Shown: positions 53,520 through 64,000 of the stretch, piece after piece
Position numbering within the stretch: the first letter of the stretch is position 1
Layout of the letters: each line of letters starts with the position of its first letter
Assembly (NCBI GenBank): GCA_021734835.1
Contig: JAIPIH010000005.1
Coordinates: forward strand, 1 to 64,000
DNA from: Candidatus Cloacimonadota bacterium
GTDB taxonomy: Bacteria > Cloacimonadota > Cloacimonadia > Cloacimonadales > TCS61
Length of the DNA stretch: 64,000 nucleotides
Direction of reading: 5' to 3'
Notes under the pieces: generated by a model
Databases searched by the model: none
Told to the model about the DNA's origin: nothing
The model's input: only the letters and a program-made list of their open reading frames with translations
Translations under genes and position numbers: made by a program

Positions 53520-55289
53520 ATGAATGGATATATGGATAGGATTATTAAGATTGACCTCACAACAGGTAAACAGGAAGAAATTTTAATTAGTAAGAAGATA
53601 AAGCGAGAATTCATTGGCGGTAGAGGACTAGGTGTAAAATTATACACTGATATGTGTCCGGTTAAGTTAGATCCTTTAGATAAAGAGAACGCTTTGATAT
53701 TTTCGACAGGACCGATCACAGGATTGATCCAAACCGCCGGTCGCTACCAGATCACTTCGCGATCACCATTAACAGGCACAATTATAACTTCCAGTTCAGG
53801 CGGATTCTTTGGAACAGCAATGAAGAAAGCAGGATTTGATTGTTTGATAGTTACAGGAAAATCTGAGAGACCAGTTTATCTCGATGTAAATGATGGTAAA
53901 ATAACTATCAAACAGGCTACACATCTCTGGGGTGCCGATACACATGAAACTATGAAAATAATCAAACAAGAGATAAATTCAAGTGCATCTGTTGCTTGTA
54001 TCGGACCGGCAGGAGAAAATCTGGTGCCTTTCGCCGCAGTTATGAATGATAAAGACAGAGCCGCAGGTCGGGGTGGTATCGGAGCAGTTATGGGTTCTAA
54101 AAACTTAAAAGCCATTTCCGCTTTTGGAAAAAAAGATATCTCCGTTCATGAACCAGAAGCTCTGAAAAAGATGATCTCAACTTTAAATACTCTGATCGAT
54201 AAAAATCCGGTTACCGGGAAATCCTTGCAACTTTTAGGAACTTCAGTTCTGGTTAATGTGATCAATGAACATGGAATGTATCCAACCAGTAATTTTCAAA
54301 AAGGAGTATTTAATGATGCTGAAGGCACTAGTGGTGAGAAGATTGCAGAATCTATCCTGGAGGGAAGGAGTGCCTGCTTTAAATGTCCAATTGCTTGCGG
54401 TAGGAAGACCAGAACCAGCACAAGAAGTGGTGAAGGTCCCGAGTATGAAAGTGTTTGGGCTTTAGGAGCTCAACTTGGCATCAATGATCTGGAAAAGATA
54501 ACTGAAGCTAACTATACTTGTAATGAATTGGGTTTAGATACAATTACAACAGGAAGTACGATCGGCTGCGCGATGGAACTTTATGAAAAAAATGCTTTTC
54601 CGGAAAAGCTTATTTGGGGTGATTCAGATAATCTTGTCAAAATTGTAGAAGATATCGCATATAAAAGAGGTATAGGAAAAGATCTGGCACTTGGCTCCAA
54701 GAAATTGGCCGAAAAATATGGAAAACCTGAAATTGCTATGCAGGTTAAAGGTATGGAAATCCCAGCTTACGATCCAAGAGGAGTTCAAGGACAAGCTTTA
54801 TCTTTTGCCACATCCAACCGAGGTGGTTGCCATATGCAGGCATATATGATTTCCTCAGAGATTTTGGGCTCTCCAGTTTTTACTGACAGGTATTCTGTTG
54901 ACGGCAAGGCTGAGATCGTAGCTTTATTGCAGGATATTTCCGCTGCTGTTGATTCTCTGGTACTTTGCAGATTCCTTCAGTTTGCAGTCAGTTTGGATAC
55001 ATTCAAGGAAATATTAAATATCGTAACCGGTTCAGATTACAGCGAAGATGAACTTCTGAAAGTTGGTTCCAGGATTTATAATCTGGAAAGAAAATATAAT
55101 GTCGAAGCCGGATTTGACCGTAAAGATGATACATTACCGGCCAGATTCCTCAAAGAAGAACTAAAAGAAGGCGCTTCTAGAAACCGACTGGTAAAACTGG
55201 ATGAAATGTTGGATAAATATTATGAGTACCGAAATTGGGATAAAAACGGAGTTCCAACCGATAAAATAATGAAGGAATTAGGACTTTGA
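53520..55289 (+). CDS. aor: Aldehyde:ferredoxin oxidoreductase (tungsten-pterin family)
   Basis: EFIGGRGLGVKLYTD, GPITGLIQTAGRYQITSRSPLTGTIITSSSGGFFGTAMK, DRAAGRGGIGAVMGSKNLKAI, CFKCPIACGR; SLVLCRF distal Cys. Confidence 0.95.
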   Translation: MNGYMDRIIKIDLTTGKQEEILISKKIKREFIGGRGLGVKLYTDMCPVKLDPLDKENALIFSTGPITGLIQTAGRYQITSRSPLTGTIITSSSGGFFGTAMKKAGFDCLIVTGKSERPVYLDVNDGKITIKQATHLWGADTHETMKIIKQEINSSASVACIGPAGENLVPFAAVMNDKDRAAGRGGIGAVMGSKNLKAISAFGKKDISVHEPEALKKMISTLNTLIDKNPVTGKSLQLLGTSVLVNVINEHGMYPTSNFQKGVFNDAEGTSGEKIAESILEGRSACFKCPIACGRKTRTSTRSGEGPEYESVWALGAQLGINDLEKITEANYTCNELGLDTITTGSTIGCAMELYEKNAFPEKLIWGDSDNLVKIVEDIAYKRGIGKDLALGSKKLAEKYGKPEIAMQVKGMEIPAYDPRGVQGQALSFATSNRGGCHMQAYMISSEILGSPVFTDRYSVDGKAEIVALLQDISAAVDSLVLCRFLQFAVSLDTFKEILNIVTGSDYSEDELLKVGSRIYNLERKYNVEAGFDRKDDTLPARFLKEELKEGASRNRLVKLDEMLDKYYEYRNWDKNGVPTDKIMKELGL

Positions 55290-55420: not shown

Positions 55421-56968
55421 ATGAAAGTCAATTTAGCAGGGTTTAATATTGATAAAAACCTGATAGATAAATTACCGAAAGATTCTATAGCGACACCGGA
55501 AACAATTTCCGCTGCGTATGCTCGTATTAGCCGTGATCCGCGCGATGTTCCTGAACTTCGTCAAGAAGCACTTAAGCAAATTAAAAAAGCCAGACGCTCC
55601 AATCAATCTATCGTGTTCGGTATGAGTCATCACTCGGTAGCGGAACATGCATATTTTAATTTTGATATTTTACAAATATCACGACTTGCTCTGGAAGAAT
55701 TGGAGGCAAGACGTATAGGGGCTGCTTACACTGAAAAATCGCAGCGTTACATTACACTGAAAGGTGATTATGTAATTCCACAGGAATTTAATTATAATGA
55801 TCGCAAAAAATATATTGAACTAGTAAAGTTACAGAATGAATTTTATCAAAAGAATCTGAAGAAGTTAACAGAATATCAGTTCAGATCACATCCACAATTA
55901 GCAGAGAAAGCTATAACAGCTGCAGCCAAGGGTGTTTCGGATAAAATGAACCGGGCAAAGAATACACTTGAGGGATGGGCAAAAGAAGATGCCCGTTATG
56001 CACTTAGTTTAGGAACTCAAGCACAGCTTGGTATGTCTTTCAATGCGCGAACTCTTGAACATGCGATCCGAATTATGCGGTATTCGGAATTAGCAGAATG
56101 TCGGGATCTGGCACAAAAACTTTTTGCTGTTACTAAAGAAATTGCTCCTTCTCTAATTATTTTAACAGATCCGGACGAATTCATGAAAACTTTCAAAACA
56201 GAATTGCAAGACGATTTTTTCAAATATACTGATTCAAGTTTAAAAAAATATGTAGAAGAGTTGATCAAAAAATATTACAGTAAGGCTAATCCTGAAACTA
56301 TAGAAGGTAGGGCAGTTGAAGAGGCTATAATGATCAATAATTCAAATGTAGATCTCAACATTACAGCAGCTGTTCTTCACCATAATTCAAAACTATCAGG
56401 CAAAGAATCTTATAGTATCGCAGAACGAATATTAGCAGATGATGAGCAAGGGGAAGAATTCTTCGCAAAAGTAATGAACTTTATCTCTGCTTTTGATCCG
56501 CTGCCGCGTGAATTTGAATTTACGGGAGAATTAAAATTTGAACTTATCGTAAGTGCCAGTAATTATGCTCAACTTAAACGTCACCGCTTAATGACGATCT
56601 TAGCTCAGGATTATGATCCCAACCTGGGAATTACTATTCCTGCATCGATCAAATCTATAAATGCTGGGAATGAGTTGATGGAAGTGGCTAATCTCAGTCA
56701 GGAGCTTTATTATGAATTTCTGCCTAAATTCGGCAAAGCAGCTGAATACTGTCTCATTAATGCACATCGCCGTCGTGTATTAGTTTCTACGAATCCGCGA
56801 GAACTTTACCACATTTCCAGACTGAGGGAAGATGAACATGCGCAATGGGATATTAAAAAAACTGCCACTAGGATGTTGACTCTGGCTAAAAAGGTTGCTC
56901 CCAGAACGTTTCTGTATTCAGGCGGAAAGGATCATTTTGAACGATTAAAAAACAAAGATCAAATATAA
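55421..56968 (+). CDS. ThyX (FAD-dependent thymidylate synthase)-like protein, tandem domains
   Basis: GMSHHSVAEHAYFNFDILQISRLALEELEARRIGAAYTEKSQRYI; FNARTLEHAIRIMRYSELAECRDLA; second copy YAQLKRHRLMTILAQDYD...TNPRELYHISRLREDEHAQWDI. Confidence 0.85.
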   Translation: MKVNLAGFNIDKNLIDKLPKDSIATPETISAAYARISRDPRDVPELRQEALKQIKKARRSNQSIVFGMSHHSVAEHAYFNFDILQISRLALEELEARRIGAAYTEKSQRYITLKGDYVIPQEFNYNDRKKYIELVKLQNEFYQKNLKKLTEYQFRSHPQLAEKAITAAAKGVSDKMNRAKNTLEGWAKEDARYALSLGTQAQLGMSFNARTLEHAIRIMRYSELAECRDLAQKLFAVTKEIAPSLIILTDPDEFMKTFKTELQDDFFKYTDSSLKKYVEELIKKYYSKANPETIEGRAVEEAIMINNSNVDLNITAAVLHHNSKLSGKESYSIAERILADDEQGEEFFAKVMNFISAFDPLPREFEFTGELKFELIVSASNYAQLKRHRLMTILAQDYDPNLGITIPASIKSINAGNELMEVANLSQELYYEFLPKFGKAAEYCLINAHRRRVLVSTNPRELYHISRLREDEHAQWDIKKTATRMLTLAKKVAPRTFLYSGGKDHFERLKNKDQI

Positions 56969-57093: not shown

Positions 57094-58572
57094 TCAATGT
57101 TGATTTACCAACCCACCTTCTTTGAATTTTTCTACCTGATAGATAAATATCTCAGTTTCATCATCCTTAAAAGCATTATATGGAAGTCCGGCTTTATGAG
57201 AGCAGAGATTACCAAGGAAAGTTGTAAGGTCCCAACCGGTTTCGGTAGCAACCTGTGGCAGGAAAACTCCGCTACGGAAACCTTTTTTTACCCAGACACC
57301 ATCGATTCCCAATCTGATCGTTTTATAATCAGATATACGTTCCATAGGTGAAAGTATAGAAATTTCTATCTCGATTTCTTCTAACTCTTTTTCATTGCGA
57401 ACTATCGGGAAACGCGGATCTTCAAAGGCAGCTCCTATTGCCATCTCAATAACAGCTTCATAAAGCGGCAGCCTGGGCTGCATATGTCCAATGCATCCAC
57501 GGAGATCACCTTTAGAATTCAAGGTTACAAATACTGCTCGTTTTTTCAACAATTCTGGATTGTCCGGTTTTGTTATTTGCAATTGCTTGTGATTCTGTAG
57601 GTAGTATTGGATACTCTGTCTTGCCAAGTTCAGCAGGAATTTCTTTTCCGAAATTTTCATAGTTTCGTCCTTTATTTTGGTTTCTTCTTTTTTGGGATAA
57701 ATGATAGAACAATAACCTACTACACGGTCTGAATGTGTGTTCCCGACAGCGTCTCCTGAGTTGGCATACTTCAGTAATACAGGATTATCTGTCTGCAAGT
57801 TTTCCATAATTTGTAAAAATGAATACATCGCATGAAAACCGCAAAGTTCACTTTTCCCAGAGAGTATATCATTTTTTAAAGAGTCCCATTTTTCATTTAA
57901 GATCAGATCACAAGTTCTTTTATCCATTGTATTGGCAAATGCGTAACTATGAAAATGAGACATATCACTGCTACTGATAAAGAGCAGATTGCTGGTTGTA
58001 TCTCTAGTTATCCGAGTTAACTCATCAGCTAGTTTATCGAGTAATTGGAAGTTATTTGTTGAAGTCAAGATCAATACTATATTGAAATCGTGGAGTTGAT
58101 ATTGCAAGAAAGGTAGCTGAACCTCCAGGCTGTGTTCCGAAGAGTGAATTTTTTTGTTGAATACAAATCTATCATCTGCTTTGATCAATTCTTCGGAAAT
58201 CATTTTGTTGATGGGAATATCTCCCAAAGGTGTTTTAGCAAAATCACCATTATAAATACTTATTGTATCCTCTAAATAATGATGACTGCTGCCGAGTAAT
58301 ATAACTGTGTCGTAATGTTTGTTCTGCAAAACTGAATAACCATGTGCAGCAACTTGTCCGGAATAGATAAATCCGGCATGAGGTGAGATTAAACCAAGAG
58401 GATCTGATTTTGTTGGAATATTTTCAACGTTCTGAAAGAAATTCATAAGCATCATTTCAAGTTCCGCCTTATTATCGGGATACCAAGTACCTGCAACGAC
58501 AGGTTCGAGCGTCTGTGAACAAATTGTCATTGCAATAGCAATAATTAATGCAAGAATAATTATTCTTTTCAT
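57094..58572 (-). CDS. AmmeMemoRadiSam system: Memo (B) - AMMECR1 (A) fusion with N-terminal signal-like segment
   Basis: Memo: VVAGTWYPDNKAEL, GLISPHAGFIYSGQVAAHGY, LLGSSHH, SELCGFHAMYSF; AMMECR1: GDLRGCIGHMQPRLPLYEAVIEMAIGAAFEDPRFP. Confidence 0.93.
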   Translation of the reverse strand: MKRIIILALIIAIAMTICSQTLEPVVAGTWYPDNKAELEMMLMNFFQNVENIPTKSDPLGLISPHAGFIYSGQVAAHGYSVLQNKHYDTVILLGSSHHYLEDTISIYNGDFAKTPLGDIPINKMISEELIKADDRFVFNKKIHSSEHSLEVQLPFLQYQLHDFNIVLILTSTNNFQLLDKLADELTRITRDTTSNLLFISSSDMSHFHSYAFANTMDKRTCDLILNEKWDSLKNDILSGKSELCGFHAMYSFLQIMENLQTDNPVLLKYANSGDAVGNTHSDRVVGYCSIIYPKKEETKIKDETMKISEKKFLLNLARQSIQYYLQNHKQLQITKPDNPELLKKRAVFVTLNSKGDLRGCIGHMQPRLPLYEAVIEMAIGAAFEDPRFPIVRNEKELEEIEIEISILSPMERISDYKTIRLGIDGVWVKKGFRSGVFLPQVATETGWDLTTFLGNLCSHKAGLPYNAFKDDETEIFIYQVEKFKEGGLVNQH

Positions 58573-58800
58573 TTTTTCCTCATGCTTACTGATGTAAATT
58601 ATTAAAAGTTAATAAAAGTAACAAGGAAAAATTTAATCAAAAACAGAACTTACCAATCTGTTAAGTAGATAGTTTCATAGCTAACAAAAAGGATAAATAA
58701 GATTATCCATCCGGAATTATAAAGTTAGGGGTTTGTGAAAATACACGAGGATATTACAATATTAATTGACACCTGCTATCATTAACTTGCAGTTTACAAC

Positions 58801-59892
58801 ATGAAAAGTGGATATATTTTAATTATTCTTTTATCTGCAATCTTCCTTGCTGGCGGAATCAAAGTTAGTGAACTGCTGCGGGAAGCTGAATTCTATACTA
58901 AACTAAAGAATGATTTTGTCCGCTGTGATCTGTGTCCGAATACATGTGTCTTAAAAGACGGTGACACGGGAACCTGCAATGTTAGGCAAAATTTAAACGG
59001 AACGCTCTACTCTCTAGTTTACAATCAACCTGTATCACTAAATATTGACCCCATCGAAAAAAAACCACTTTATCATTTTCTGCCTGGCTCAAAAGTATTT
59101 TCACTGGCAACAGTAGGCTGTAATCTGAATTGTAATTTCTGCCAGAATTGGACGATTTCCCAAAGTGCACCACATGAAGTTCAGACATACGAAGCGACAC
59201 CAGAGGAAATTGTGCAGATGGCAAAGGATTACAATTGTAAAAGCATTGCCTTCACATACACTGAACCAACAGTTTTCTTTGAATATATGTACGACATCGC
59301 AAAAATAGCGCAGGAAAATGATCTCAAGACAGTATGGGTTACCTGTGGTTATATAAATGAAGCACCTTTGCGTAAACTAGCACAATTTATAGATGCGGCT
59401 AATATTGACTTGAAGGGTTTTTCAGAAGAGTTTTACACAACTTATACAACAGGTCACCTTGATCCTGTATTGAATACCTTACAAGTTGCCAAAGAAGAGG
59501 GAATATTTTTCGAGATAACGAACCTCGTAATTCCAAATGGCAACGATGATCCTAAAATGATACGTGCTATGTGTGAATGGATAAAACAAAATTTGGGAGA
59601 CGAATATCCTTTACATTTTTCCCGCTTTTTCCCCAACTTCAAGCTTACAAACTGTCCTCAAACGCCGGCTAAAACTTTAAAACAAGCCTATAATATAGCT
59701 TTAGAAGAAAGTTTAAAATTTGTCTACGTCGGTAACATAAGTACCATTTCGGAAGATACTATATGTCCGAATTGCCGTAAAAGAGTGATCATCCGTTCGG
59801 GTTATACAATTCTGGAAAACAATCTTGAGGAAGGTAATTGCAAATTCTGTGGAGAAACAATTTCGGGATTGTTTATAAATGAAAAAAAATAG
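58801..59892 (+). CDS. AmmeMemoRadiSam system radical SAM enzyme with hydrophobic N-terminus
   Basis: REAEFYTKLKNDFVRCDLCPNTCVLKDGDTGTCNVRQN; VGCNLNCNFCQNW (CxxxCxxC); IDPIEKKPLYHFLPGS; C-terminal CPNC...CKFCG. Confidence 0.93.
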   Translation: MKSGYILIILLSAIFLAGGIKVSELLREAEFYTKLKNDFVRCDLCPNTCVLKDGDTGTCNVRQNLNGTLYSLVYNQPVSLNIDPIEKKPLYHFLPGSKVFSLATVGCNLNCNFCQNWTISQSAPHEVQTYEATPEEIVQMAKDYNCKSIAFTYTEPTVFFEYMYDIAKIAQENDLKTVWVTCGYINEAPLRKLAQFIDAANIDLKGFSEEFYTTYTTGHLDPVLNTLQVAKEEGIFFEITNLVIPNGNDDPKMIRAMCEWIKQNLGDEYPLHFSRFFPNFKLTNCPQTPAKTLKQAYNIALEESLKFVYVGNISTISEDTICPNCRKRVIIRSGYTILENNLEEGNCKFCGETISGLFINEKK

Positions 59893-61975
59893 AATTCCAC
59901 TTATAGTCTTAGGGGTAATAACCATTCTGTCACAAACAATTTTATTACGTGAAATGCTAGTGGAGGTGAACGGAAACGAGATCATTTTCTCTATTTACCT
60001 TTCACTCTGGCTTTTTTTTATTGCTAGTGGTAGTTATTTGTCAGGATTTGTTAAAACTACCAAAAATAAAACAATAATTGGTTTTTCGGCTTTATTGGTC
60101 GTTTTGCCATTGCAATTCTACCTTGTGCGCAGTTTATCTTCATTATTCACTTTCGTTTCAAATCAGATTCTTGATCTTCCTTCAGTTTTTTTGCTTGGAT
60201 TTATTATTCTTCTACCAGGTTGCCTTTTGAGCGGCTGGCTTTTCCCACAATTGTGCAATCAGCTTAATGCCCGGGAAGGATCTCTCAGACAAGGCTATTT
60301 CTTGGAGTGTATTGGAATAGTTTTAGGTAGTATTGTTTTTGCTGTTGCGATGTTAATCATTTCTCAAATCATTTTACTCTGCTTTCTGAGTGCAGTTGGA
60401 TTCCTAATTTTGTATTATGTCTATAGGAAGAAAATTCTGCTGATCCCTTTTATCATATTCCTGTTTATTATTCCATTTTCAACTTCATTTTATCAAAAAA
60501 GTTATAGTAAAAAATACCAGCCTCAGAAACTCATTGCTTTTCGTGATTCTCATCTCGGGAGATTTGATCTCACAGAAATGTCGGGTCAGAAAAATTATTA
60601 TTGGAATGGAGAACTTTTTGCCTCTTCAGGCAATGAAATGTATAGTCAGCAAATGGTGAATTTTGTAATGTTGCAGCATCCAGAACCACGAGAATTATTA
60701 ATTGTAGGTGGATTGTTAAACGGATTTATGCAGGAAATTTTGCAAAATGAATATGTTTACAACATAGATTATCTGGAGATGGATAAGAACATTTTAGATC
60801 AAGCTCAGAAATTCAAGAAAGTAGAATTTATACATGCTGATCCGGTGTGGTTCTTGCAGAATACCGAAAAAAAATATGATCTAATTTTATTGGATTTGCC
60901 GGATCCATCCTCACTATTATTAAATAGATTCTATACTCGCGATTTTTTCAATATTCTTAAAGAAAATCTTAAAGACACGCTTTCTATCGTTGCAATAACA
61001 CTTAGCAACGGAAAAAACTTTATGACTCAAGAGATAAAGGATTTAAATGCAACTATATTACATACATTTTCAGCTGAATTTCCCAATGTGATCCTGATAC
61101 CGGCCACAAAAAATATCTTCATCGGCAGCAAAGGTAATTTTATTTCAAATCAGTATGAAATACTGCAGAAACGCAATAAAACAGAAAGCGCCTGGTTCAA
61201 TAAAACAGTGATCTATGAAAAATGTAATTCGCTTCGCATTGAACAAATACTGAAATCCATAAGTTCCAGTTCAGCAGAGATGAACACTATTGCAAATCCT
61301 CGTGCCTACCTTTCTACAATTTTACTTTGGACTGATCTTGTTGATCTAAGACAGCAAAAAACTGTGGATTTTCTGCAGTCGAAAAGCTGGTTAGTGATGT
61401 TTATTGCTTTTGTTATAATATTCACAATCGGTTTGTTCGCATCTCTGATAAGTAGATCACCGGAAAGAAGACTGGATCTGCATATTTTTTCAATAAGTTT
61501 GATAAATTTTGTGATCGAGCTTGTTTTGATATATCTTTTCCAAATTAGATTCGGTTATGTTTATTTTGTGATCTTTCTTTTTACAGCTAGTTTCATGATA
61601 GGATTAGCAGCCGGATTTTCAAATTATAATTTCCTGAAAAAGAACTCAATTACAAAGATCTGGTTTATAAACTTGTCTCTGGTTCTATTGATGATAATTA
61701 TATACAACATCCGCCTGCCGGCAGTTTTTTATTTTATCTTAAATATTATTTTTGCTTTTCTGGAAGGAACCATACTGACCAAACTACTGGATAAGAAGAG
61801 TAACATTATGGGAAAAGGAAGCACATTTTATTTTCTTGATAGCTTCGGTGCAATGACAGGCGGGATAATTGTAAGCATTTGTATTTTCCCACTTTTTGGA
61901 TTACAGAGTAGTCTCTATTTCTTGAGTTTCATCCTGCTTGTTAATTTGCTGCTCAGCTTGATTCCAAAATACTAA
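59879..61975 (+). CDS. Membrane-fused spermidine-synthase-like protein
   Basis: N- and C-terminal TM bundles flanking RELLIVGGLLNGFMQEILQNEYVYNIDYLEMDKNILDQAQKF and YDLILLDLPDPSS. Confidence 0.8.
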   Translation: MKKNRIPLIVLGVITILSQTILLREMLVEVNGNEIIFSIYLSLWLFFIASGSYLSGFVKTTKNKTIIGFSALLVVLPLQFYLVRSLSSLFTFVSNQILDLPSVFLLGFIILLPGCLLSGWLFPQLCNQLNAREGSLRQGYFLECIGIVLGSIVFAVAMLIISQIILLCFLSAVGFLILYYVYRKKILLIPFIIFLFIIPFSTSFYQKSYSKKYQPQKLIAFRDSHLGRFDLTEMSGQKNYYWNGELFASSGNEMYSQQMVNFVMLQHPEPRELLIVGGLLNGFMQEILQNEYVYNIDYLEMDKNILDQAQKFKKVEFIHADPVWFLQNTEKKYDLILLDLPDPSSLLLNRFYTRDFFNILKENLKDTLSIVAITLSNGKNFMTQEIKDLNATILHTFSAEFPNVILIPATKNIFIGSKGNFISNQYEILQKRNKTESAWFNKTVIYEKCNSLRIEQILKSISSSSAEMNTIANPRAYLSTILLWTDLVDLRQQKTVDFLQSKSWLVMFIAFVIIFTIGLFASLISRSPERRLDLHIFSISLINFVIELVLIYLFQIRFGYVYFVIFLFTASFMIGLAAGFSNYNFLKKNSITKIWFINLSLVLLMIIIYNIRLPAVFYFILNIIFAFLEGTILTKLLDKKSNIMGKGSTFYFLDSFGAMTGGIIVSICIFPLFGLQSSLYFLSFILLVNLLLSLIPKY

Positions 61976-62005: not shown

Positions 62006-62674
62006 TCATTTCTTCAATTCCACTTTGAACATAGAAAAATCTTCTAATTCTAAGATGAGCATTGAGTTAATGAGCAATGGCTTATCAAAAAGGTTATTGA
62101 TAATTTCCTGAATCATCAAAGAGCCTATCAGCATAACAATCTGCGGAATAACGGAAACAGAAACAGGAATATGAGTTCCGGGATATATCTCTTTTAGAGA
62201 TTGCGTTTTATCCGGTATGATGGTAGTGACCTGTCCGAAATCATTTTGTACTCCACCATGAACAAGGAATTGTTGCTTCGATAGAAGTTTCTCTAGATAA
62301 AAGCGGGCAGCAAAATTATCAAGGCAATCTGCAATACCATCGTAGAGGGGGAGATCCTTAACTTTCATTTCTGCAATATCCACTTGAAAAATTTCAATTT
62401 CCAGTTCCGGATTTATAGCCTTTAATCTTCGTTGAGCAATTTTAACTTTTGATTTACCAAAATCAGTTTGATCGAATAAGATCTGGCGGTTTAAATTTGA
62501 GATTTCTACCTTCCCATTATCGATCAGTATCAATTTACCGATACCTGCTCTGGTCAATCCTTCTGCAACAAGGCAGCCTAAACCGCCCACTCCGGCAACG
62601 AGAACCGAAGATTCTGATAATTTCTGCTGTTTTTCCTTTCCCCAGAACTGGACATTACGCTGGAACATATTCAT
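62006..62674 (-). CDS. ThiF/MoeB/HesA family adenylyltransferase (E1-like)
   Basis: SSVLVAGVGGLGCLVAEGLTRAGIGKLILIDNGKVEISNLNRQILFDQTDFGKSKV; ATG 62674 preferred over GTG 62683. Confidence 0.92.
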   Translation of the reverse strand: MNMFQRNVQFWGKEKQQKLSESSVLVAGVGGLGCLVAEGLTRAGIGKLILIDNGKVEISNLNRQILFDQTDFGKSKVKIAQRRLKAINPELEIEIFQVDIAEMKVKDLPLYDGIADCLDNFAARFYLEKLLSKQQFLVHGGVQNDFGQVTTIIPDKTQSLKEIYPGTHIPVSVSVIPQIVMLIGSLMIQEIINNLFDKPLLINSMLILELEDFSMFKVELKK

Positions 62675-62675
62675 A

Positions 62676-62954
62676 TTATCCACCTCCTCCCGGTGGGAAA
62701 ATACTTACCACATCACCATCCTGCACAATTGTATCGAGTTTTTTCAAATGAAAAATATTGCGTCCGTTGATCAAGATCATTGTACCTGGAATGATCTCAT
62801 AATCAGCGTTGATCAGCAGATGGAGAAGTAACTTATCTAGTTGTTTTTCAGCGATTTGCAGAAGATCGTATATCGATATTTTATCAGCTTCGATCTGGAT
62901 TTCGTTAATTCCAAGATGTAGTCGAATAAGACTGTAGAATTTTATTTTTATCAT
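62676..62954 (-). CDS. MoaD/ThiS family sulfur-carrier-like protein
   Basis: 92 aa beta-grasp-like sequence, ILINGRNI...LDTIVQDGDVVSIFPPGGGG with terminal Gly-Gly. Confidence 0.9.
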   Translation of the reverse strand: MIKIKFYSLIRLHLGINEIQIEADKISIYDLLQIAEKQLDKLLLHLLINADYEIIPGTMILINGRNIFHLKKLDTIVQDGDVVSIFPPGGGG

Positions 62955-63041: not shown

Positions 63042-64000
63042 TTATTTAATTAACAACATCTTCTTAGAAACGTTGTTTGACGCTGTTGTCATCTTAACAA
63101 AGTACATACCGCTGGAAGTTGAATTACCATTGTTATCTTTCCCATTCCAGACAAAGTTTGTATTTTGAATTACTGCATTATTCACAATTGTTTTAACCAG
63201 CTGACCTTTAATGTTGTAAATCTCAACTGATACTGGATGCAGAATATCATTCTCGTTAATTGAGAGAGCAATATTAGCTGATGGATTGAATGGATTAGGA
63301 TATACTGAAATAGAGTTAAGAGTAACTATCTCTACAGTATTGTTTTCAGAACCTGTTGGTTCCATACCGTTCGGTCCACCATAAGCACCCATATCATTTC
63401 TGGAGCCGTCAACGTCATTATACATTTCATCCGGATCTCCTGCATTGATACAGGGAGAACCAGCTTGTAGTTGCCAATCAGCTACAAGTCCATTATAAAC
63501 TGTTCCTTCTCCCTCTGTAGGTGCAATGAACATGGGAGCTTCATCAATGTTACCTTCACCAGCAAAACCACCGGTAACACAAGTATAAGTGATCTCCGGT
63601 GTACTTTGTGGGAAATAGATATTACCATTATCAATAATGATCGAGTTTGTTATAACAGGGACTGAGTTAAGCAGGAAGAAAAGATAGGGTGTGTTATTTG
63701 TCGATTCGTTATTGGCAATCGTATTGTTAGTTAGTTCCACATCAGAACCGTTTTTCAAACTGAAAGCTCCCCATTGTCCTGTATTATTTACGATAATGTT
63801 ATTATCAATTACAGGTAAGGAAGCAGTACAAGCAATTCCACCAGAATTACTTACGCTTGTATTGTTAGCGATCATATTTTTTTGGATCAAAACGTCATCT
63901 GAGCCGATAATTTCCAATGCTGCTCCTAATGTTGTAGTAGAGTTATCAAAGATCTTACATCCTATAACATCAACTTTGGAATCGCCTTCAACTTTAATTG
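63042..64000 (-). CDS. Right-handed beta-helix-like exported protein with T9SS-type C-terminal domain (partial; N-terminus beyond window)
   Basis: Parallel-helix-like NNTIANNEST...ITNSIIIDNGNI; SVYPNPFNPSANIALSI...GMYFVKMTTASNNVSKKMLLIK; frame stays open to 64000, upstream of the TTG used by the track. Confidence 0.85.
   Translation of the reverse strand, partial: IKVEGDSKVDVIGCKIFDNSTTTLGAALEIIGSDDVLIQKNMIANNTSVSNSGGIACTASLPVIDNNIIVNNTGQWGAFSLKNGSDVELTNNTIANNESTNNTPYLFFLLNSVPVITNSIIIDNGNIYFPQSTPEITYTCVTGGFAGEGNIDEAPMFIAPTEGEGTVYNGLVADWQLQAGSPCINAGDPDEMYNDVDGSRNDMGAYGGPNGMEPTGSENNTVEIVTLNSISVYPNPFNPSANIALSINENDILHPVSVEIYNIKGQLVKTIVNNAVIQNTNFVWNGKDNNGNSTSSGMYFVKMTTASNNVSKKMLLIK

Follow-up and report, generated by a model that had tools for sequence, protein, structure and literature searches.

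AmmeMemoRadiSam is a widespread three-part system of unknown function, with components recognized by the profiles TIGR04335 (AMMECR1), TIGR04336 (Memo) and TIGR04337 (radical SAM). Because their chemistry depends on SAM and low-potential electrons, radical SAM enzymes are regarded as cytoplasmic. Points of comparison for the individual parts are the pyruvate formate-lyase (PFL) activating enzyme; the fused MFS/spermidine synthase proteins (NF037959 and PRK03612) along with spermidine synthase itself (PF01564); and human MEMO1, whose metal (Fe/Cu) ligands are H49, H81, and C244 (PMC11081632). For Memo-Ammecr1 systems, the literature (PMC7159879) cites Burroughs et al. 2019. As far as titles and abstracts go, localization is not a topic of the papers found that mention AmmeMemoRadiSam, and earlier notice of exported forms is not excluded; similarly, the titles and abstracts found on radical SAM together with periplasm or twin-arginine contained no extracytoplasmic radical SAM enzyme, and none found combined AMMECR1, radical SAM, and spermidine synthase. 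The locus described here is like the known system in that its components score above the cut-offs, with metal ligands and cysteines intact. Unlike the typical system, it has two of the parts fused, predicted export segments on both proteins, and an added gene for a SpeE-like protein with 14 transmembrane (TM) helices, and the variant to which it belongs has Tat-type or Sec-type versions across phyla.

Architecture of the locus

The window, i.e., the whole 64,000-nt stretch of DNA analyzed, contains at 57094-61975 a fusion gene, a divergent radical SAM gene, and an overlapping SpeE-like gene. An earlier note on this DNA had described a Memo-AMMECR1 fusion divergent to a radical SAM gene, and both open reading frames are indeed present. 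The fusion (AmmeMemoRadiSam proteins B and A; 492 aa; 57094..58572, minus strand) matches TIGR04336 at 251 bits and TIGR04335 at 180 bits, each above the curated cut-off, and the radical SAM enzyme (363 aa; 58801..59892, plus strand) scores 400 bits with TIGR04337 (cut-off, 220), the domain starting at residue 30. Between the fusion gene and the radical SAM operon lies a divergent intergenic region of 228 bp (58573..58800). Missing from the earlier note was the third gene (59879..61975, plus strand), which codes for a SpeE-like polytopic membrane protein of 698 aa and whose first 14 nt overlap the end of the radical SAM gene. Contamination of the contig was considered and rejected, as a ThyX-like gene flanking the locus shares 70-81% identity with same-genus genomes, and the contig thus fits the genome. 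Other genes in the window code for an aldehyde ferredoxin oxidoreductase (53520-55289); a 515-aa protein with two ThyX-like stretches (55421-56968; two matches to TIGR02170), apparently a tandem ThyX; ThiF-like and MoaD-like proteins past the operon (62006-62954); and a protein with a T9SS C-terminal sorting domain (63042-63998) that continues past the window end.

In the fusion, the Memo domain (57700..58506, minus strand) retains H65, H97, and C244, the motif equivalents of the MEMO1 Fe/Cu ligands; all 24 fusions compared have these three residues, and D203 and H206 are likewise invariant. Unlike human MEMO1, this Memo domain is fused to AMMECR1 and predicted to be exported. The AMMECR1 domain (57124..57639, minus strand) matches 1vaj, 1zq7, and 1wsc. 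The radical SAM protein (all positions on the plus strand) has an N-terminal Cys motif, C42-X2-C45-X3-C49-X9-C59 (58924..58977), the radical SAM CX3CX2C motif formed by C107, C111, and C114 (59119..59142), and two zinc-ribbon-like C-terminal Cys pairs, C322/C325 and C347/C350 (59764..59850). None of these 11 cysteines varies among the 34 radical SAM sequences compared, whether exported or not, and the core residues checked are equally constant, save for E155, replaced by Asp in two. No solved structure was found for the AmmeMemoRadiSam radical SAM family; the nearest solved fold to the model is the PFL-activating enzyme (3c8f; TM-score of 0.82 on the target), which is also matched at the profile level (E = 1.7e-15). 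The window enzyme differs from it in the extra N- and C-terminal Cys motifs, the export segment, and an identity of only ~15%.

Signal-like segments and predicted export routes

Both proteins begin with hydrophobic N-termini, a claim of the earlier note that is borne out. In the radical SAM protein, the segment MKSGYILIILLSAIFLAGGIKVSEL (58801..58875, plus strand) resembles a Sec-type signal or anchor without a twin-arginine, whereas the fusion starts with the signal-peptide-like segment MKRIIILALIIAIAMTICSQ (58513..58572, minus strand). The further claim that the radical SAM gene offers no alternative start also holds, there being no ATG, GTG, or TTG from codon 1 to the radical SAM domain. 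The fusion has an internal Met15, eight residues ahead of its domain, which makes a later start formally possible; the related fusions in the phylum retain the full-length N-terminal segment, which in relatives closes with ..SQT, ..AQT, or ..SET, followed by REPAVAG. Of the features of a Sec signal, a basic n-region and an h-region are present, and the small residues expected at -3/-1 of a cleavage site were assessed only by eye. The window fusion lacks a lipobox, the -1 residue in MTIC being Ile; lipobox-like sequences occur in several of its relatives. No RR is present in the window radical SAM N-terminus, and no TatC match was found in the window genome. The radical SAM model (pLDDT of 92.7) has a helix at residues 5-25, with low confidence in that part.

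Within the host phylum, the high-scoring radical SAM form (>380 bits) was found in 27 of 125 genomes searched, and each readable N-terminus in this clade opens with at least one basic residue, followed by a hydrophobic run in which sequence identity is low. Within the genus, the window genome alone among those searched showed the exported radical SAM form, so the distribution is patchy. The Memo matches in the phylum comprise fusions in open frames near 500 codons, which possess signal-like N-termini, and stand-alone proteins near 275, which, where checked, lack them. A scan of genome contigs across phyla recovered a sample of at least 80 loci, those listed coming from Omnitrophota, Bacteroidales, Deltaproteobacteria, Planctomycetota, Latescibacterota, Nitrospirae, Clostridia, and others. 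When 127 distinct radical SAM sequences were classified by rule, 55 N-termini were Sec/TM-like, 30 Tat-like, 7 split, 33 without a signal, and 2 unreadable. The 55 Sec-type sequences have a mean net charge of +2.9 ahead of the hydrophobic stretch and +0.1 behind it, and on account of this bias we predict an N-in/C-out topology. Upstream of the 33 signal-less genes there is an in-frame stop within 30 codons in 31 cases and an open hydrophobic stretch in none. The earlier note had held that its reading would fail if homologues lacked the segments and started later; instead, the segments are conserved. The fusion and the radical SAM protein of the same locus tend to share their export class (p = 2.5e-5): alongside a signal-bearing radical SAM protein, 33 fusions appear exported and 2 do not, whereas alongside a signal-less one the counts are 3 and 8. 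In L147, L158, and L184 it is the fusion alone that appears exported, and the discordance at L140 seems to stem from misalignment of a real TM segment.

In the split loci, the catalytic open reading frame has no extension, and a small frame just upstream encodes a signal or TM segment ending in the radical SAM N-terminal motif (e.g., SLREARFYTTLKK and then a stop). These small frames lie at 6825-7031 in L173, 6768-6971 in L179, 5041-5298 in L193, 1345-1596 in L196, 6667-6996 in L199, 6751-6981 in L201, and 6599-6874 in L149, and in several cases overlap the next start. Programmed frameshifting was considered and is not settled; because frames and gaps differ among the loci (e.g., a gap of ~18 nt in L179), separate reading frames are more likely. 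Some Bacteroidetes, as well as one Omnitrophota genome, have the exported radical SAM gene in two or three tandem copies bearing Tat-type signals (L144, 1293-5048; L143, L168, L171, and L185).

The window genome contains a second set of all three AmmeMemoRadiSam proteins, identified by family searches only, without signals: stand-alone Memo proteins on contigs 11 and 59, AMMECR1 on contig 5, and a radical SAM paralogue of 324 residues on contig 35. In the last of these the domain starts at once (MNEALFYTKL), whereas in the window protein about 27 extra residues, MKSGYILIILLSAIFLAGGIKVSELLR, precede the equivalent EAEFYTKL. A selenocysteine at a TGA in the contig 35 paralogue was ruled out; the TGA is simply the normal stop codon, which the profile match runs past at its end. 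The signal-less paralogue recurrently adjoins small membrane proteins (L089, L091, L093, L097-L100, and L102), and several of these loci have a gene that, by its sequence start, resembles PdxJ or Kdo transferase, without identification by a profile.

Tat is able to carry folded, cofactor-loaded proteins, whereas Sec normally exports protein unfolded. Tat-type orthologues occur in Bacteroidales, Deltaproteobacteria, Omnitrophota, Clostridia, and others, and TatC is present in the genome for 20 of 22 Tat-type loci as against 6 of 26 Sec-type loci (Fisher p = 2e-6). Only 5 of the 125 host-phylum genomes have a TatC match over the cut-off, and the exported locus is absent from all five; the match in G085 is sub-threshold only. 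Each of the two signal labels, Tat and Sec, must have changed at least six times on well-supported branches of the tree. The Fisher and other association p-values given here are uncorrected for relatedness; tree-controlled pair tests point in the same direction, with five pairs for Tat/Sec, too few for significance. As signal type follows the presence of TatC, cultured relatives offer a way to check the compartment.

Membrane partner and possible electron supply

Alignment-averaged hydropathy of the SpeE-like protein indicates seven TM helices, a 298-residue domain, and another seven TM helices, and an AlphaFold2 model (pLDDT of 89.4) has the same layout. The summed Lys/Arg of its short loops is ~16.6 for those assigned inside versus 3.8 for those outside; based on this positive-inside charge, the domain in the TM7-TM8 interval (60491..61384, plus strand) is predicted to be periplasmic. 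It has the fold of spermidine synthases (Foldseek probability of 1.00; TM-scores of about 0.65-0.73 on the targets), and the window protein matches PF01564 at 57.8 bits. There is no match between the window protein and NF037959 at E 0.001; a relative in L202 scores 61.3 against that profile's cut-off of 40. The fold is shared with NF037959, PRK03612, and PF01564. The window protein differs from these in the 14 TM helices flanking an externally oriented domain and in the lack of conservation, within its family, of the first Asp of the DxxDP motif, which is present in the window protein and replaced in many relatives. The family's glycine motif is also variable, whereas an N-R-[FYL]-[YF]-[ST] motif is nearly constant. 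Given the varying glycine motif and the unconserved Asp, an ordinary aminopropyltransferase is unlikely.

A SpeE-like neighbor is present in 57 of 69 signal-bearing loci and in 2 of 12 signal-less ones (p = 1.6e-5), not counting loci too short for a decision. In L184 and L190, the radical SAM protein is signal-less and a SpeE-like gene is nearby all the same. In the host phylum, the SpeE-like gene follows the exported radical SAM gene wherever there is room, with G107 having it on another contig, and full-length relatives co-occur with the exported enzyme, the exceptions (G074 and G081) being at contig edges.

Clustering of the neighbors beyond the three known families yielded one family, located inside or adjoining the operon in 22 loci from other phyla among those listed. 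Pfam identifies DsbD_2 in L169, FMN_bind and Fer4_5 (NosR/RnfG/NapH-like) in L201, and all three in L140; the remaining loci were assigned to the family from their similarity in sequence to these. DsbD, NosR, and Rnf-type proteins move electrons across the inner membrane. In other phyla, operons of this system include proteins (PF13386, PF04205, and PF12801) like the DsbD/CcdA-like and NosR/RnfG/NapH-like carriers; in the window, by contrast, no electron carrier adjoins the locus. DsbD_2 proteins were considered as donors in the host phylum and rejected; they are present but not specific to carriers of the exported locus.

Proposed location and competing explanations

The earlier note inferred that this version might be membrane-tethered or exported. 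That inference is upheld by the conserved extensions, the N-in/C-out charge bias, the Tat-type signals of orthologues, the signals or lipoboxes of fusions in the same loci, the periplasm-oriented membrane partner, and the signal-less paralogues of all three proteins. Taking these findings together, we regard it as very probable that the locus is an extracytoplasmic variant of AmmeMemoRadiSam, a statement that concerns location and composition rather than roles and has no experimental localization behind it. The radical SAM enzyme would cross the inner membrane, using a Sec-type signal or anchor here and Tat where TatC is present, and act in the periplasm or on that membrane's outer face, its partners outside being the exported Memo-AMMECR1 protein and the 14-TM SpeE-like protein. 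Whether the window proteins are tethered or cleaved is not resolved, and an envelope-associated substrate, also suggested by the earlier note, may exist but is an inference.

The chief alternative is that the N-terminal helix merely tethers the enzyme, the catalytic domain staying in the cytoplasm near SAM and electrons. Such a tether would avoid the problems of electron supply, SAM, and cluster assembly, and it accords with the split forms, whose catalytic frame has no signal of its own. Nevertheless, we consider it improbable: the charge bias predicts the opposite orientation, the Tat-type orthologues are hard to reconcile with it, the partner fusions bear signal peptides or lipoboxes, and the SpeE-like domain is predicted to be outside. 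Alternatively, the exported radical SAM domain might be a noncatalytic metal- or SAM-binding scaffold, with the cytoplasmic paralogue performing catalysis. As Sec cargo is normally unfolded, the 4Fe-4S cluster of a Sec-exported enzyme would need to be inserted outside, and we know of no machinery that inserts such clusters outside the cytoplasm; this difficulty in cluster loading, together with the signal-less paralogues in the same genome, speaks for a scaffold. Against this, the 11 cysteines and the checked core residues are conserved as described above, several lineages use Tat, and electron-carrier genes stand alongside in 22 loci, making a mere scaffold very improbable in our view. Finally, an annotation artefact, in which a later nonstandard start codon leaves the hydrophobic segment untranslated, has little beyond Met15 of the fusion and general start uncertainty to recommend it and can be practically dismissed, since the segment is found in all readable clade members at a similar start position with basic residues before the hydrophobic run, and 31 of the 33 signal-less homologues have upstream stops.

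If the enzyme is extracytoplasmic, as we prefer, its requirements would have to be met outside, and here our inferences are weaker. We see an even chance that the electrons come from membrane carriers, e.g., the DsbD-like or FMN/4Fe-4S proteins of other phyla. More tentatively, as the SpeE-like protein keeps the fold of enzymes binding decarboxylated SAM and MTA while the catalytic Asp is unconserved, it might serve the adenosyl side outside, either by supplying SAM or by binding and clearing 5'-deoxyadenosine. No less speculative is the inferred possibility that the PFL-activase-like core generates a radical whose target is a protein, lipid, or cofactor of the envelope, with the product passing to the Memo metal site.

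For a family of unknown function, an exported version with membrane partners provides a testable context: a substrate in the envelope, electrons delivered across the membrane, and a candidate for handling the cofactor. It is conceivable, though we would put it at rather less than even, that many phyla conduct extracytoplasmic radical SAM catalysis, in which SAM and low-potential electrons cross the membrane, 14-TM SpeE-like proteins service the adenosyl cofactor there, and an envelope substrate is modified by the exported AmmeMemoRadiSam complex. The surprise lies in the fact that radical SAM chemistry has been thought to need the cell interior, yet a version apparently built for export spans many bacterial phyla.
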